Shown here piece by piece: positions 4,786-25,224 of a stretch of 25,224 bases of DNA. The stretch is from a virus. Under the pieces are notes generated by a model. It saw only the letters and a list, made by a program, of their open reading frames with translations. It made no database searches and had not been told where the DNA came from. Location of the stretch: positions 1 to 25,224 of the IMG/VR virus record IMGVR_UViG_3300042346_000502; one strand, written 5' to 3'. Position numbers and translations under genes: made by a program. Every line of letters starts with the position of its first letter. Within the stretch, counting starts at the first letter, position 1.

Positions 4786-5139
4786 TTATATAGTCTCTAA
4801 TGTAATACTAGTATCATAAAGCATATACGCTCTATACTTTTTACTAATAGTTCCTTCTTTATAAGTAACTGTATAATCTATATTAGTTATTGGGTGTGTA
4901 AATATAAATGTAGAACCAACATTATTTAAGAAAAAGTCTTCTAGTATGTTGTATTCAATATCAGTTACATTTTCATAATTTAACTCAAAAGCCCTACGGC
5001 TTCTAGAAGAAGTACGCCTAACCTGTAAGTAATTAGACTCAAAACTAGTTTTAGTGATATTCACAGATGTCTGCTCTCCTGAACCTATACGTGGCATAGG
5101 AGCAGCTGTATTATTACTTGGTAATGGGTATAGTGCCAT
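4786..5139 (-). CDS. Minor tail protein M-like
   Basis: This 117-residue protein matches the lambda gpM family in length, position and pattern. It has a hydrophilic N-terminus, then a 'RRTSSRSRRAFELNYENVTD.EY..LEDFF' segment, then 'STFIFTHPITNIDYTVTY', typical of the short tail-tip/distal-tail proteins that follow the tape measure gene. It is expected to join the tape measure and tube end to the L-J tip. Its ribosome site (TAGGAGA) lies inside the last codons and stop of the tape measure gene. The two genes are separated by 3 bases, so the two are probably coupled. Confidence 0.8.
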   Translation of the reverse strand: MALYPLPSNNTAAPMPRIGSGEQTSVNITKTSFESNYLQVRRTSSRSRRAFELNYENVTDIEYNILEDFFLNNVGSTFIFTHPITNIDYTVTYKEGTISKKYRAYMLYDTSITLETI

Positions 5140-18053: not shown

Positions 18054-19397
18054 TTATACTATTGTCATTCCTGCTAATTCTCTGCGGAAGTGTGTATAGA
18101 TTGCATACCGCAACGCTGCTAGCATATCCCAGTGGCTTCCTTCTGGGTCCTTATTAAATGGGTCAGAAGAACTCTTGGCATCTTTATACGTTACCATCTT
18201 GATTTGACGTATAAGCTCTGTGAGATTACGATTAATATAAAGCTTAGGTTTCTTATCATACCCTTGCAATGCCATTAGGTCATTTATACATGCTAAGCCA
18301 GCAGCTACTTTATTATTAGCTCTGGAGATCTCATAGTCATACTGGGTGCGTAGATCAAGCATTGTCTGAGCAGCCGATGGATCACCATACCGCTCCAGCA
18401 ATATACCTTTATTTCTAGTCTCCATATTCTTAAAAGCTTTTACATGATCCTTAGTCGGTCTGGCAGCTTCCTGATAGCCATCGTGTACATAAAAGTTCCC
18501 AGCATTATCTACATAGATTAAAATCATTGCAGTCGCATCCGAATGTCCCCAATCGTATCCTGCAATATAGGTAGCATTACTATCAAAGTATATATCAGAG
18601 GTATCATATAGATTATACTCACTACTGAAGGCATGAAACACACCCTGCCCAGTATCTAACCACTCAGCTAGTAGTTCTTGGCGATATACATGATCTGGTA
18701 ATAATTCTTTCTGCTGATCTAAGTAAGCCTTAGGTAGTAATGGATTACAGGTGCTTGGACTATTAAAGCTACGCCAGTTACTGTGACTACCTTCTTTAAG
18801 GAATAGGCCATGAAAGACAGTACCTTTACCTCTAGGAGTGCCTAGGAATACCGCCTTAGCATATAACTGGCCAGACTCGCGTACTCCGTAGTCTAACATC
18901 ATGGGGCCAAGGATCTCTTCAAATATACTTTTGAGGTCTTGGATTGATTGGGACTCATCAACAATCAATAGGCTTAGGCGTGAACCCAAGGCAGACTCAT
19001 AGTTTGTTTGAGTAACCGATGTAAATCTAGCACCATTCTCAAGTTCGATAGTAAACTGATTTTTATTGATAGACTTTACAGGTAGCTGCAAACCCTGTAC
19101 ATGCTTAAGAACTTCTTTAAACATAATGTCGGAGTTCTTGTAGCTTGGGGTCAATAGTATTGTATTACTAAAAGGAATAAGCAATTCTCTTAGTGCTATC
19201 ATAGCAGTTGAGAAGCTTTTACCTGAACGACGGCCTAGTACGATAACGTAGTGGTTTATCTCATGGTTGCTATCGAATACCTCAACAATTGGCCTCTGAC
19301 CATCATGAGGAGTAGCTTTTACTAAGTCCCATACTTTACTGAGCTTAACTTTATCGCTAACCTGTTGATACGTCCTAATCTCGTCATTAACTATCAT
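18054..19397 (-). CDS. terL: Terminase large subunit (packaging ATPase and nuclease)
   Basis: This 447-residue protein pumps DNA into the prohead and cuts it. The ATPase half shows Walker A GRRSGKS at 55-61, Walker B LLIVDE at 143-148 and a coupling motif GTPRGK at 186-191. The RNase-H-like nuclease half shows GYDWGHSD with Asp282, GDPSAA with Asp339, and the late acidic residue Asp424 in HWDMLAALRYAIY. The domains are complete and of normal size. It is the first gene of the leftward structural operon. The start ATG has AAAAGG 6 bases upstream, and a leader of about 130 bases separates it from the outward-facing module at 19574-19529. No small subunit lies on this strand. Confidence 0.95.
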   Translation of the reverse strand: MIVNDEIRTYQQVSDKVKLSKVWDLVKATPHDGQRPIVEVFDSNHEINHYVIVLGRRSGKSFSTAMIALRELLIPFSNTILLTPSYKNSDIMFKEVLKHVQGLQLPVKSINKNQFTIELENGARFTSVTQTNYESALGSRLSLLIVDESQSIQDLKSIFEEILGPMMLDYGVRESGQLYAKAVFLGTPRGKGTVFHGLFLKEGSHSNWRSFNSPSTCNPLLPKAYLDQQKELLPDHVYRQELLAEWLDTGQGVFHAFSSEYNLYDTSDIYFDSNATYIAGYDWGHSDATAMILIYVDNAGNFYVHDGYQEAARPTKDHVKAFKNMETRNKGILLERYGDPSAAQTMLDLRTQYDYEISRANNKVAAGLACINDLMALQGYDKKPKLYINRNLTELIRQIKMVTYKDAKSSSDPFNKDPEGSHWDMLAALRYAIYTHFRRELAGMTIV

Positions 19398-19528
19398 TGA
19401 AAACCTTTTAACTACATAGGAGAACCATTACTGACGCATTACGTACTCGTCTTGTCCTTTTATTAAGAAGTTGGAGTAACTCCCATACCACTTGTTCATC
19501 CTATGCACTTAGAAAACCTATTTACTAG

Positions 19529-19574
19529 TATATTGTGGGGTTGTACAAAAAATAAAGGCTTTTGCTAACTATTT
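19529..19574 (-). promoter_or_regulatory. Left copy of a 46-base outward-facing module, facing terL
   Basis: On the minus strand, AAATAGTTAGCAAA (19574-19561), 15 bases, then TACAACCCCACAATATA (19545-19529). The same two blocks with the same 15-base spacing occur on the plus strand at 20174-20219. A weak -35-like TTAGCA lies 17 bases before TACAAC. The module points at the structural operon, 132 bases from the terL start. It is probably a regulated (late) promoter or operator. Confidence 0.7.
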
Positions 19575-19616
19575 CTTATATAGAGCTTAGGTTTTATGAC
19601 TATATAGTATCTTCTA

Positions 19617-19645
19617 TTGACATTTAAGGTCTTTTATGCTATAGT
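19617..19645 (+). promoter_or_regulatory. Consensus sigma70-like promoter for the 120-residue gene
   Basis: TTGACA (19617-19622), 17 bases, TATAGT (19640-19645), a near-perfect promoter with start near 19652. It reads rightward through a leader of about 145 bases into the gene at 19796. Confidence 0.8.
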
Positions 19646-19659
19646 GTTATTGTTTATGT

Positions 19660-19700
19660 CCTGGAGTCCCCAGGCAAACTGAATATAATCTCTCAGAGAG
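19660..19700 (+). promoter_or_regulatory. Structured leader: hairpin and palindrome just after the promoter
   Basis: CCTGG/CCAGG at 19660-19674 makes a 5-base stem with a 5-base loop, and CTCTCAGAGAG at 19690-19700 is a perfect odd palindrome. Both lie within about 50 bases of the expected start, so they could be operator sites or leader RNA structure controlling the 120-residue gene. Confidence 0.4.
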
Positions 19701-19795
19701 CCCAGAAGGCTTTATACGTACAAAAGCAAGTTAGGATACCCCTAAGGGATTATCGTGGCTTCTAGGTACCTTAAAATGACGCACAGGAGCATCTA

Positions 19796-20158
19796 ATGAT
19801 TACAAAACAAAATACAGAACGAGTACGGGTATGTTACGCCTCAGGTTGCTACTCTAAATATAACCTTTGGGATAGCTATAGGCATGAACTCTTACCGACA
19901 GAAGTTGATAGTATCTTAAACTATGAGACATACCCAGAGGTTAGAGAAGACTTACATCAAGCAATACTAGACCTAGACCATTCAGTAACTAAATATAATG
20001 AATACCTCGTGAGTCTCCGCCATGAACAACAACAAGCAGAGTATATGGAACGCCGAGGAAAGCAGTATCCATATGAAGAAAATAAAAGACAACTAGATGC
20101 ATTGCTAGAAACAGAGCTAAAAGGCTTTAAAGTGGAGGCCCTAAAAAGGGCACTTTGA
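19796..20158 (+). CDS. Unrecognised 120-residue protein between two outward-facing modules; candidate regulator
   Basis: No family is recognised. The protein is charged and mostly helical: a short N-terminal part with two Cys (Cys13 and Cys18 in VCYASGCYSKY), then acidic helices (DLHQAILDLDHSVTKYNEYLVSLRHEQQQ) and a basic middle and C-terminus. A good ribosome site (AGGAG) lies 7 bases before the ATG, and it has its own sigma70-like promoter. The gene lies exactly between the two copies of the 46-base module that face the structural operon and the rightward operon. This makes it a candidate for the factor that controls them, but no DNA-binding motif was identified. A stem AAAGT-GCCCT/AGGGC-ACTTT overlaps its last codons (20129-20156). 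Confidence 0.75.
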   Translation: MITKQNTERVRVCYASGCYSKYNLWDSYRHELLPTEVDSILNYETYPEVREDLHQAILDLDHSVTKYNEYLVSLRHEQQQAEYMERRGKQYPYEENKRQLDALLETELKGFKVEALKRAL

Positions 20159-20173
20159 AGTCTAAGAAAGAGA

Positions 20174-20219
20174 AAATAGTTAGCAAATCGTCTTTTTTGC
20201 TATACAACCCCACAATATA
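20174..20219 (+). promoter_or_regulatory. Right copy of the 46-base outward-facing module, facing the plus-strand operon
   Basis: AAATAGTTAGCAAA (20174-20187), 15 bases, then TACAACCCCACAATATA (20203-20219), identical in both blocks and in spacing to the inverted copy at 19529-19574. It ends 157 bases before the ATG at 20377. The 15-base middle is T-rich in both copies but not conserved base for base. A T6 run lies at 20193-20198. Confidence 0.7.
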
Positions 20220-20376
20220 TAGCTGAAGGCCAAGGAAAGTACAGGTATACTATAGGAAGAAATTTCCTAGAAGATTATCTTATAGCTCATACTGCATATA
20301 CAACCAGCCGCAACTATTGGCATACCAAAATCATCTAAAATACAGTAAATAAACCAGTCAAATTAAACGGGGCGAA

Positions 20377-20904
20377 ATGAAAAAACTCACTATTATAAAT
20401 CCCAGTAGCAGATCCATAGTACTAAGTGATGTGTCAAGAGCTAAAGCAGCAGAGTGGCTTGGCGTTACACCATCGGCTATCAATAACACCCGTAGTGGTA
20501 TGATACAGGGCTACTTGCTCCTAGATATGTCCTTTCCTCATTGGGCTATTGGGTATAAGCTATCTGCTAAGGAGCAGGATCTATTAGGCCTAGCGCAGGT
20601 GGTTACACCTCAGATAGCCAGACAATGCACCGGCTGTGGTAGCACCCATGGCCTATTGGATAAATATGAGCTCTGTACTGTATGCCTAGGCTTAGCCGTG
20701 AATACATTGGGAACCATACGGCCCTCTAGAATGCCCATAGCAGTCACTGATGGCATAGATCAATGGCCTAGTATTAAGGCAGCCGCCTTGGCTACTGGAC
20801 GTAAACCGAGTACTGCAGCCTCAGCGATCTATAAATGCGCTATTGGTAAGACCAAGTCATACCTTGGAAAGCAATGGACAATACTACCTAAAGGAAACAT
20901 ATGA
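20377..20904 (+). CDS. Zinc-ribbon protein flanked by two NUMOD1-like DNA-binding segments
   Basis: This 175-residue protein has three visible parts. Residues about 16-50 (SRAKAAEWLGVTPSAINNTRSG...YLLLD) and about 130-170 (SIKAAALATGRKPSTAASAIYK...YLGKQWTIL) both follow the 'KAA..LG...SAI......K.Y.GK.W' pattern of NUMOD1-type helix-turn-helix units found in homing endonucleases and phage regulators. Between them is a zinc-ribbon pattern C84-x2-C87-x12-C100-x2-C103. No nuclease motif is present. It is therefore a likely sequence-specific DNA-binding protein, perhaps a transcription regulator or a domesticated endonuclease. It is first in a five-gene coupled operon; the ribosome site is GGGGCGA and its stop overlaps the next start by 4 bases. 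Confidence 0.75.
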   Translation: MKKLTIINPSSRSIVLSDVSRAKAAEWLGVTPSAINNTRSGMIQGYLLLDMSFPHWAIGYKLSAKEQDLLGLAQVVTPQIARQCTGCGSTHGLLDKYELCTVCLGLAVNTLGTIRPSRMPIAVTDGIDQWPSIKAAALATGRKPSTAASAIYKCAIGKTKSYLGKQWTILPKGNI

Positions 20905-21380
20905 GTTATAAAGCCAGAGACTTCCTCCTGGAACTAGACCAACCACCAGAGCCAATAGCCCTACCAGAACTGGACACTATAGAAGAGACTAAGAGTCTAC
21001 AGGTATTTAAGCCACTGGAACGTCAAGTAATAGAACTGGCCTTAGATGCCCTAAGTCCTGATACCATAGCCCTTAGGACTGCCTTGCCAGTATCAGTAGT
21101 CAGAGCTATCCTGGCTCGTAAGGATGTTAAAGAGCATTTGGAATTCCTATCCACAGAACTAAATGCTGCTGAGGTCATACGACTAAAGTCCCTATATGGG
21201 AAAGTCCTGGATGCTAGGATTGAAGAGGCTGATGGAGACCTTAGCAAACTCTCTAAGAGAGATACACTAGACATCATGAAAGCCTACCAGGAATTGTTAG
21301 TGGCGGAGCGTAAGGCTCAGAAGCCAGAGCAGGAACAGAATGTATTCATAAATATATTAAACCAAGTCATGGGAGATTAA
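20901..21380 (+). CDS. Probable terminase small subunit
   Basis: This 159-residue protein shows the layout of small terminase subunits. A short N-terminal arm leads to a helix-turn-helix-like region at about 37-72 (PLERQVIELALDALSPDTIALRT, then PVSVVRAILARKDV). Long oligomerisation helices follow at about 80-140, and a C-terminal strand/helix VFINILNQVMGD is of the kind that contacts the large subunit. It would recognise the packaging site and feed DNA to TerL. In most phages it lies directly upstream of terL on the same strand. Here it is 1.5 kb away on the opposite strand, separated by the promoter region. Alternatively it could be another helix-turn-helix protein. The ATG overlaps the previous stop (ATGA). 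Confidence 0.6.
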   Translation: MSYKARDFLLELDQPPEPIALPELDTIEETKSLQVFKPLERQVIELALDALSPDTIALRTALPVSVVRAILARKDVKEHLEFLSTELNAAEVIRLKSLYGKVLDARIEEADGDLSKLSKRDTLDIMKAYQELLVAERKAQKPEQEQNVFINILNQVMGD

Positions 21381-21596
21381 ATGACACTACCACTATACAC
21401 ATACGCAGATACTACACTGACTCTATGGCTACCTAGGCATGCTAGATTCAGCCTAGAGCCGGAGCTATCGTACTACAGAGACGATCCGCAAGGGCAGGCC
21501 TTTAGAGGGGCTAGATACGTAATAGAACAGGCACCGCCTCAGGTATGCCTTACCATCCTAGACCAGACCTATAGGTTAGTCAATGCAGGATCTTAG
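21381..21596 (+). CDS. Unrecognised 71-residue protein
   Basis: The start ATG follows the stop of the preceding gene without a gap (TAAATG), and the end overlaps the next gene by 14 bases, so it is a coupled member of the operon. The protein (MTLPLYTYADTTLTLWLPRH at its start) has several beta-strand-like stretches, many Arg, Pro and Tyr, and no motif I recognise. Confidence 0.65.
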   Translation: MTLPLYTYADTTLTLWLPRHARFSLEPELSYYRDDPQGQAFRGARYVIEQAPPQVCLTILDQTYRLVNAGS

Positions 21597-21876
21597 AATT
21601 AAACCATGGGGGCAGGTACCAGATTACGCCCCGGATGACATACAGCTAGCACTGCAAGGCTATGGCCCTAAGGAATTCCAGGAAGAGGTGCAGGCCTTTG
21701 TAGGTAAGTATGGACAACAGCTTACAGCCTCGGCTCTATGCCGAATCTTGGGCCTTGACTATAGCCAGTTGCCGGAGCGATCCTATGGGCAGTATTCAAC
21801 ACAAGCCATAGTAGTCCTTAGACCTCAGGCAGACCTAATGGCTGATATAGCTAAATTCCAGGCTGGGGTAATCTAA
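21583..21876 (+). CDS. Unrecognised 97-residue protein
   Basis: Mostly helical, acidic in the first half (DYAPDDIQLALQGYGPKEFQEEVQAF). It has a segment 'LTASALCRILGLDYSQLPERS' that could be a helix-turn-helix but is too short to assign. It overlaps the preceding gene by 14 bases and the next by one base (TAATG), with AGGATC as a weak ribosome site. Retained because of the continuous coupled arrangement. Confidence 0.65.
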   Translation: MQDLRIKPWGQVPDYAPDDIQLALQGYGPKEFQEEVQAFVGKYGQQLTASALCRILGLDYSQLPERSYGQYSTQAIVVLRPQADLMADIAKFQAGVI

Positions 21877-22904
21877 TGGCCAGGGGTAGACATGCCGCCG
21901 TGCCTAGGAGCCCATTATACAGCCCACTGACAGAGTTCATCAGAGGGCCTAGGGAATTGCCTGAGCATCAGGCTTATAACCAATATCAGCAGGACTATCC
22001 CTTGACTATCTCTCAGGCTGCTGAGTATATCCATTGCTCCCTATGTAATGATACAGTGGCTGTGATACGGCATCAGCCCAGGACTCCTTTACAGTTCTCA
22101 ACGTACCACCCACAGCCGCCACGATCCTGCCGGTGCAAGAACCTACATGCCATGGTTGACCATAGGGGGATGCCTAGGATATACACAGACCATCCCGAGA
22201 CTATCAGCTTCAGGGTACCATTTAAGACTCAAGGCCATTGGCTAGGTCATAATAACCTTCTGGACTACCCACAGCTTCCTATTAGCCAACTACTACTGGA
22301 TGGTCCTAAGCCGCAGAGATCCCATGAGCCACCTAAGCTAGACCCATTGCTGCTCTATACAGATACCTTAGAAATTATTAACTACGATGACCTAAGGTTA
22401 CCTCCTGTGGGGTTCAGCCGTAAGCTAACGCCTCAGGAGCGTTATTGCTTCTATAGACAGTATGCCTTAGCCTATAAGATCATTATAAGGACTCCTAAGA
22501 TGGTCTACTATCCCAATGGCTTGACCCTGCACCCCAGCAAGCCTAGGCCCGCCAATATCATGACTTGCACATACCTTAACATTGAAATAAATATGCTTCA
22601 TCTCCACCACAGACGTGGCAATCCTACGGTCACCTCAGGCTATCCCTATAATGTAGCTAGTCCTAGCCTTAACCACTACATCCACCGCCGTAACCATTGG
22701 ATGCAGAGGTACTATGCAGCTTATAAGCTTAACCCACAGGCTGCCATAAGGAGTCTGGAGCATCTACATATAATCCGCATAGATCATAATGAATCTATCA
22801 TTCCTCCAATCCCCATTAAAATACTAATAGCCTCCGATAAACTCACCCTCCGCAGTAATCCCCCTAAGTACTCAGGTCCTGGCCGACCCAAGCGCCAAGG
22901 CTGA
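21876..22904 (+). CDS. Unrecognised basic 342-residue protein with Cys pairs and AT-hook-like tail
   Basis: Not a recognised family. Residues 54-57 (CSLC) and 85-87 (CRC) form a C-x2-C ... C-x-C pattern that could bind zinc, in a region that begins with an 'SQAAEYIHCS' helix. The rest is very rich in Pro, His, Tyr and Arg (e.g. HHRRGNP, HYIHRRNHWMQRYY). The last residues GPGRPKRQG resemble an AT-hook (Gly-Arg-Pro core), suggesting DNA or RNA binding. It is the last gene of the plus-strand operon, starting on the previous stop (TAATG). GC content appears higher than in the tail genes, and CTAG-containing codons are frequent. The function is unknown; a nucleic-acid-binding role is inferred. Confidence 0.7.
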   Translation: MARGRHAAVPRSPLYSPLTEFIRGPRELPEHQAYNQYQQDYPLTISQAAEYIHCSLCNDTVAVIRHQPRTPLQFSTYHPQPPRSCRCKNLHAMVDHRGMPRIYTDHPETISFRVPFKTQGHWLGHNNLLDYPQLPISQLLLDGPKPQRSHEPPKLDPLLLYTDTLEIINYDDLRLPPVGFSRKLTPQERYCFYRQYALAYKIIIRTPKMVYYPNGLTLHPSKPRPANIMTCTYLNIEINMLHLHHRRGNPTVTSGYPYNVASPSLNHYIHRRNHWMQRYYAAYKLNPQAAIRSLEHLHIIRIDHNESIIPPIPIKILIASDKLTLRSNPPKYSGPGRPKRQG

Positions 22905-22913: not shown

Positions 22914-23343
22914 TCCCACCCCACTACACCTCCCAAGGCACTTTCAAAAATAATCCCCCAAATTTCTACGGGCCCCTCTAGTATACCATAAGTAACCTTA
23001 AAGAATAACCACCCCCCGCCTATGCTACAAAAAGAATTGCATTAAGTGTAACCTATTGTAACACTCACAAAGTTTAACCAATAGTAACAGCTATAAGCTA
23101 TTCTTATTTATTCTGTAAGCTATTGTTATAATACCATAAGTCACTAAAAAGCCATATAATACGCTATACGCCTTGATAGTGTCATTTAATAGCATAGCAT
23201 TAGACACTTATAGCGTGTCTATAACCACTCTTAAAACGTCCCAAAACTAATTTTATTTTTTAAGCTTAGAGGCTATGATATAACATTTTCTTATACTTTA
23301 TTAAGTAGTGCTATAAGTTTTTATTATAAGCCATACTCTTAAA
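22914..23343. other. Non-coding AT-rich region with scattered short repeats
   Basis: No credible gene on either strand in this stretch. It holds a C-run (near 23013), the degenerate repeat pairs listed separately, and several copies of TATAGCGT or its complement (23162, 23211; another at 25088). One extended -10-like element TGTTATAAT (23124-23132) lacks a -35. The composition marks the end of the phage gene block and the start of the repeat-rich locus. Confidence 0.6.
23049..23129 (+). repeat. Two degenerate direct-repeat pairs (15-mer at 26-base step; 14-mer at 22-base step)
   Basis: TAACCTATTGTAACA at 23049-23063 and TAACCAATAGTAACA at 23075-23089 agree at 13 of 15 bases. TAAGCTATTCTTAT at 23094-23107 and TAAGCTATTGTTAT at 23116-23129 agree at 13 of 14. 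Short AT-rich direct repeats near helical-turn spacing in non-coding DNA resemble initiator-binding sites. Confidence 0.6.
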
Positions 23344-23420
23344 GGGGTGATGAGGGGTGATGAGGGGTGATGAGGGGTGATGAGGGGTGATGAGGGGTGA
23401 TGAGGGGTGATGAGGGGTGA
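23344..23420 (+). repeat. Perfect 10-base G-rich tandem repeat, 7.7 units
   Basis: The unit GGGGTGATGA is repeated without change from 23344 to 23420 (eight GGGG blocks separated by six bases). It lies in non-coding DNA; the unit length is not a multiple of three. The plus strand has the spacing needed for a G-quadruplex with six-base loops. It could be an array of protein-binding sites at one-turn spacing, or a slippage-prone minisatellite. Confidence 0.95.
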
Positions 23421-25147: not shown

Positions 25148-25224
25148 TACGGCTATGCTACGGCTATGCTACGGCTATGCTACGGCTATGCTACGGCTAT
25201 GCTACGGCTATGCTACGGCTATGC
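25148..25224 (+). repeat. Perfect 11-base tandem repeat, seven units, running to the right edge
   Basis: TACGGCTATGC is repeated exactly seven times from 25148 to 25224, the last base of the window, so the array may continue. An 11-base unit is about one helical turn, as in iterons. It lies in non-coding DNA after the 220-residue gene. Because the window stops within it, it may also be an assembly break or a genome end. Confidence 0.95.

Follow-up and report, generated by a model that had tools for sequence, protein, structure and literature searches.

Matched inverted modules around a small gene between divergent terminase arms of a phage: candidate control sites

The divergence point and its paired modules

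The window analysed here is the whole of virus record IMGVR_UViG_3300042346_000502 (25,224 bases), which is itself a fragment. It contains a point from which genes run in both directions (Table 1). On the minus strand lies terL, the gene of the large terminase subunit, preceded by a leader, and on the plus strand an operon that includes the gene of the small terminase subunit, TerS. Between them sits a small gene for a 120-aa protein, with a promoter of its own, and this gene is bracketed by two inverted copies of a 46-base module. The window ends (25148-25224) in a perfect tandem array of seven TACGGCTATGC units, which is probably the reason why the assembly stops there.

Table 1. Features of the divergence point in the window and module pairs of the related phages G001 and L016
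Feature	Position	Strand	Description
terL, large terminase subunit	18054-19397	-	First gene of the head/tail arm
terL leader	19398-19528	-	Conserved stem-enclosed structure at 19413-19507
-10-like hexamer TATACT	19527-19532	-	Outer edge of module 1; 5/6 match; best -35 match 3/6
Module 1	19529-19574	-	AAATAGTTAGCAAA-N15-TACAACCCCACAATATA; faces terL
Host-type promoter TTGACA-17-TATAGT, extended TG	19617-19645	+	Promoter of the small gene; 11/12 consensus
Small gene (120-aa protein)	19796-20158	+	Homologues in G001 and L016; predicted helix-turn-helix-like (residues 4-41) and helical hairpin
Module 2	20174-20219	+	Same fixed parts AAATAGTTAGCAAA and TACAACCCCACAATATA, same N15 spacing; faces TerS operon
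Weak -10-like hexamer TATATA	20216-20221	+	Outer edge of module 2, same register; best hexamer 4/6
175-aa four-cysteine protein	20377-20904	+	First gene of the divergent operon
TerS, small terminase subunit	20901-21380	+	PHROG 3802 in all three phages
Three further operon genes	21381-21596, 21583-21876, 21876-22904	+	No assigned function
Module pair of G001	87501-87550 and 87952-88001	- and +	CTTAAAGTTTGCTTAAA-N10-TTTGTAGTAAACCNATAAAATAC; brackets small-gene homologue
Module pair of L016	4384-4433 and 4947-4996	- and +	AAATTCTTTTCAAAACTTGGGGAGA-N8-AATCTTCGCTATATAGT; brackets small-gene homologue

Each module consists of two fixed parts and an intervening spacer. The fixed parts of the two copies are identical at all 31 positions, with the spacer matching at only 6 of 15, giving 37/46 overall. 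When the fixed parts alone were scored, the inverted match was 31/31, and 100 Markov-shuffled versions of the region gave 26 at best; identity over the unmasked 46 bases stood out less clearly, at 37 where shuffling reached 32 at most. Neither half of the module was found elsewhere in the window above chance. An exact search of IMG/VR for the right half gave one hit only (L001), which falls within a coding gene in a phage unrelated to this one and was set aside as a chance occurrence. Module 1 is 132 bases from terL and module 2 is 157 bases from the operon. An earlier note on this DNA had located the pair and given both distances, all of which hold on the sequence. It had also called the copies outward-facing; that they are inverted stands, but the repeat itself does not give the orientation, as any inverted pair can be read either way.

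The small gene is served by a sigma70-like promoter, which was likewise described beforehand and is a real consensus match. Its product was said to belong to no known family, and searches of Pfam, PHROG and PDB sequences indeed returned no match, nor was any relative found in cultured phages. A structure modelled with confidence from three homologous sequences (pLDDT 82) has short helices at residues 4-16, 21-27 and 34-41, arranged as in a helix-turn-helix, followed by a long helical hairpin. The structures matching it are mostly helix-turn-helix domains, at E-values above 0.8 and thus not significant, the best in the PDB being DeoR and LuxR-type regulators and Tc3 transposase; matches of 49-52 residues at 1.5-2.2 angstrom were also seen in phage endonucleases. 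Judged from this model, the protein is predicted to be helix-turn-helix-like and is probably DNA-binding. The possibility that it is a small terminase was considered and rejected, as it matches no TerS family and its profile comparison with the phages' own TerS gave a probability of 0.2%.

The 175-aa protein that opens the operon is zinc-finger-like with weak helix-turn-helix hints, and is a further possible DNA-binding regulator. Its predicted structure (pLDDT 33) was useless. It has a relative in G001 (L012 6761-7390, minus strand), one of the two related phages described below, and an uncertain one in the other, L016.

The locus in two related phages

IMG/VR was searched with TerL, the small protein, the leader, the capsid and the portal, and yielded two relatives in total, which came from TerL and from an alignment of portals; a genome collection searched with TerL and capsid yielded none. 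Both relatives are uncultivated. The first, G001 (IMGVR_UViG_3300033485_000006), has 89,401 bases and a TerL 73% identical to that of the window; about 124 bases inside terL are present at both of its ends, which makes the map near-complete and circular. It holds relatives of 20 window genes in unchanged order, and all of its coding diverges from this locus. The second, L016 (IMGVR_UViG_3300020048_000570), is a fragment of 26,482 bases with a portal 52% identical. Both have terL on one strand and, on the other, the homologue of the small gene with the TerS operon after it.

Each relative has its own inverted pair of modules around the small-gene homologue (Table 1). In G001, a search of the 89 kb allowing up to three mismatches found no further copies, so that there are exactly two. 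The common form in the three phages is that of two fixed parts with a spacer constant in length and free in sequence, 46-50 bases in all, inverted around the same gene; past this size and bipartite form the three module sequences follow no clear common scheme. Over 50 bases the modules are alike within each genome (identity 0.82, 0.90 and 0.90), while between genomes the identity is random or close to it (0.54-0.70 against a shuffled baseline of 0.61 +/- 0.04). This contrast indicates joint change of the two sites within each genome. Gene conversion by itself does not account for it, as the spacers would then have been levelled too, and these are unmatched. The pair is real and recurrent, and very probably represents functional, co-evolving regulatory sites. 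The earlier note had looked to related phages for the same paired module, and had held that modules lost where the genes are kept would speak against its reading. The matched pair, its place, its bipartite form and the small gene are all kept in G001 and L016, and only the module sequence is not, so that this test, applied to sequence alone, would mislead.

The small protein has also changed quickly. Its homologues (118 and 136 aa) share 31% and 28% identity with the protein of the window, a far faster divergence than that of TerL or TerS (73% and 48%, window against G001). Of its promoter, both relatives have the TTTAAGGT spacer together with a correspondingly spaced -10 hexamer.

The best conserved part of the region is the terL leader. 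The leader of the window (19398-19514, minus strand) is 91% identical to that of G001 (L012 8026-8142, plus strand) over 117 bases, where the terL coding DNA reaches 70% and the small gene 58%. Four substitutions fall in its outer stem, two of them forming a compensatory pair, and pairing is kept by all. A shuffle control of the structure is uninformative with two sequences (240/500), and two are also too few for a covariation statistic; the slide control and a direct reading of the substitutions favour structure. The leader has no match in Rfam. A possible reading frame of 27 codons beginning with GTG is open there in both the window and G001.

In the operon leader beyond module 2, the element TATACTATAGG occurs in the window (20246-20256) and in L016 (4355-4365, minus strand). 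It is also present once in G001, at 5046, before another gene.

Possible functions of the modules

The edges of the modules bear on the direction in which they might be read. In five of the six arms a -10-like hexamer with at least five of six matches lies at the outer edge, for which the chance in random intergenic windows is 0.14 per arm, the arms within a genome not being independent. At the inner edge no hexamer of this quality is present in any of the six. This count is suggestive of outward promoters, and the outward direction would also be favoured by the conservation of the terL leader and by the divergent coding of G001. None of the arms has a -35 hexamer 16-18 bases before the -10, the best match being 3/6 in every one, and this implies an activator or a phage sigma factor. 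An ordinary -35/-10 pair picked out by eye within the window module (TTAGCA-17-TACAAC, 4/6 each) was dropped, as it is not carried over to the relatives.

No sigma70-type site facing terL was found in the whole intergenic stretch of the window. A leader with structure implies a transcript starting upstream of it, and module 1 lies there. On the other side, no terminator was found after the small gene, and transcription from that gene's promoter might therefore also extend into the operon. A candidate reader is encoded by G001, namely a sigma factor of 211 aa (L010 8409-9044; PHROG 351, E-value 7.9e-10), for which Pfam region 4 falls just below the cut-off and region 2 was not detected. A search for a single-subunit phage RNA polymerase (PF00940) gave no match, and the control set likewise gave none.

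The reading preferred here, with a probability of about 0.6, is that the modules are twin phage-specific promoters or activator sites that co-regulate the two divergent arms. The host-type promoter would act first, and the bracketed gene would yield its small helix-turn-helix-like protein. A later phage factor, either this protein or a phage sigma factor, would then recognise both modules, and transcription would start outward both ways, into terL and the head/tail genes and into the operon with terS, raising the two terminase subunits in step with the virion proteins. With one factor reading both sites, their likeness would be maintained in each genome even as the pair drifted from one genome to the next. 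The promoter activity, the outward direction, the late timing and the identity of the binding protein are what we infer. The earlier note had proposed a compact divergent late-control system at this point, and much of its substance is retained, namely the paired target-like sites and a regulator-like gene with a host-type promoter, a layout that recurs in two relatives; the late timing belongs to the inferred part. More tentative is the fuller proposal that the small protein founds a new helix-turn-helix regulator family, co-evolving with its own two bipartite sites of 46-50 bases and switching on both arms, with lineage-specific sets that do not cross-react and with the terminase subunits split between two matched promoters.

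The same arrangement could serve repression. In the immunity region of lambda, outward-facing operator pairs lie around the repressor gene and are alike within a phage and different between related phages. By analogy, the small protein would bind both sites, possibly bridging them in a loop, and would silence the outward promoters and perhaps the promoter of its own gene. The locus is similar to that of lambda in having matched sites on both sides of a gene for a protein with predicted DNA binding, alike within a genome only and changing together between phages. Moreover, one module of G001 has its inner box overlapping the promoter of the small gene, an overlap that would allow autoregulation there; in the window about 43 bases separate this promoter from the closer module. 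The locus differs from that of lambda in its two single sites instead of operator triplets and in its flanks, which are terminase and structural genes and not early genes. No integrase or resolvase family (PF00589, PF00239) was found in G001 or in the L016 fragment, control genomes being positive, and RIIA together with replication genes points to a lytic phage. A repressor switch is unlikely.

The nearness of both terminase genes to the pair raises the alternative of a pac-like packaging site, at which TerS or the small protein would bind the matched sites and direct the first cut. Phage SPP1, with its paired packaging sites around a cut, offers a precedent, and a helix-turn-helix followed by a helical hairpin resembles small terminases in outline. 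Each of the three phages nevertheless encodes TerS separately from the small gene, and no search identified the small protein as TerS. Packaging does not need a symmetric pair 600 bases apart, and the -10-like outer edges and the conserved leader would be left unexplained. This explanation is unlikely.

A replication origin at the divergence point, where the coding strands part and near which the GC skew of G001 changes sign, is very improbable. The skew minimum of G001 lies nearer 82-84 kb, where a non-coding stretch of 1.4 kb with ten 11-base tandem repeats is the better origin candidate. Non-coding tandem arrays are found beyond the TerS operon both in the window (23343-23420, a 10-base unit repeated 7.8 times) and in G001 (83521-83640, an 11-base unit repeated 10 times). 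From its position near the skew minimum, the G001 stretch is a candidate replication origin. Inverted repeats around one small gene could also suggest the ends of a mobile element, recombination sites that flip a segment, or arms levelled by gene conversion, since recombination can level inverted arms, but these are largely excluded by the constancy of place, gene and orientation in three diverged phages, by the lack of any integrase or resolvase in G001 or L016, and by spacers that differ while both sides match, which neither levelling nor a crossover core would leave.

Comparison with known control systems

As twin promoters or activator sites, the modules have parallels among phages whose late promoters are read by factors of their own. 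In phiEco32 and 7-11, late promoters occupy similar positions with dissimilar sequences and each set is read by the phage's own sigma factor (gp36 and gp47, respectively), those of 7-11 being bipartite with fixed spacing (PMC8948821). The modules are comparable in that position is kept and sequence is dissimilar between relatives, and the sigma factor encoded by G001 is a candidate for reading them. They differ in that phiEco32 and 7-11 have 6-8 promoters with short elements across the genome (PMC8948821), whereas here exactly two sites of about 50 bases stand back to back around one gene. The late promoters of Mu have poor -10 and -35 hexamers and a site for the activator protein C upstream of the -35 position (PMC4461284). 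Although the modules are also without a -35, Mu has four late promoters and not an inverted pair around the activator gene, and family searches revealed no sequence relation of the small protein to Mu C.

In kind, the locus can be classed with matched control sites at divergent phage promoters, of which it is a variant. What is new is that the sites bracket a fast-changing regulator and are bipartite, near 50 bases long and peculiar to each phage, and that the terminase subunits are split between the two arms. Placing the same site at the head of two opposite operons, with one factor reading both, is a possible way to keep them in step. The pattern of sites matched within genomes and different between them in three phages would represent a natural record of protein-DNA co-evolution, with three sets of regulator and site.

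The phages concerned have TerL and major capsid proteins 24-27% identical to those of T5-like phages (Demerecviridae), with the order terL, portal, protease, capsid in common, and on these similarities the group is related to them only very distantly. The T5-like phages differ at the locus itself, as the gene before terL there runs the same way, with no divergent regulator between. The late genes of T5 use the host sigma70, and the mechanism of the switch between its gene classes is stated as unknown (PMC7472727), which makes a compact candidate switch in distant relatives useful.

A further promoter form recurs in the relatives, consisting of TTTAAG-N5-TTTAAGG followed by a TATAAT-like hexamer, without TTGACA. 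It is present on the minus strand in G001 (32209 and 87957) and in L016 (4941), and may be a hint at the host group.
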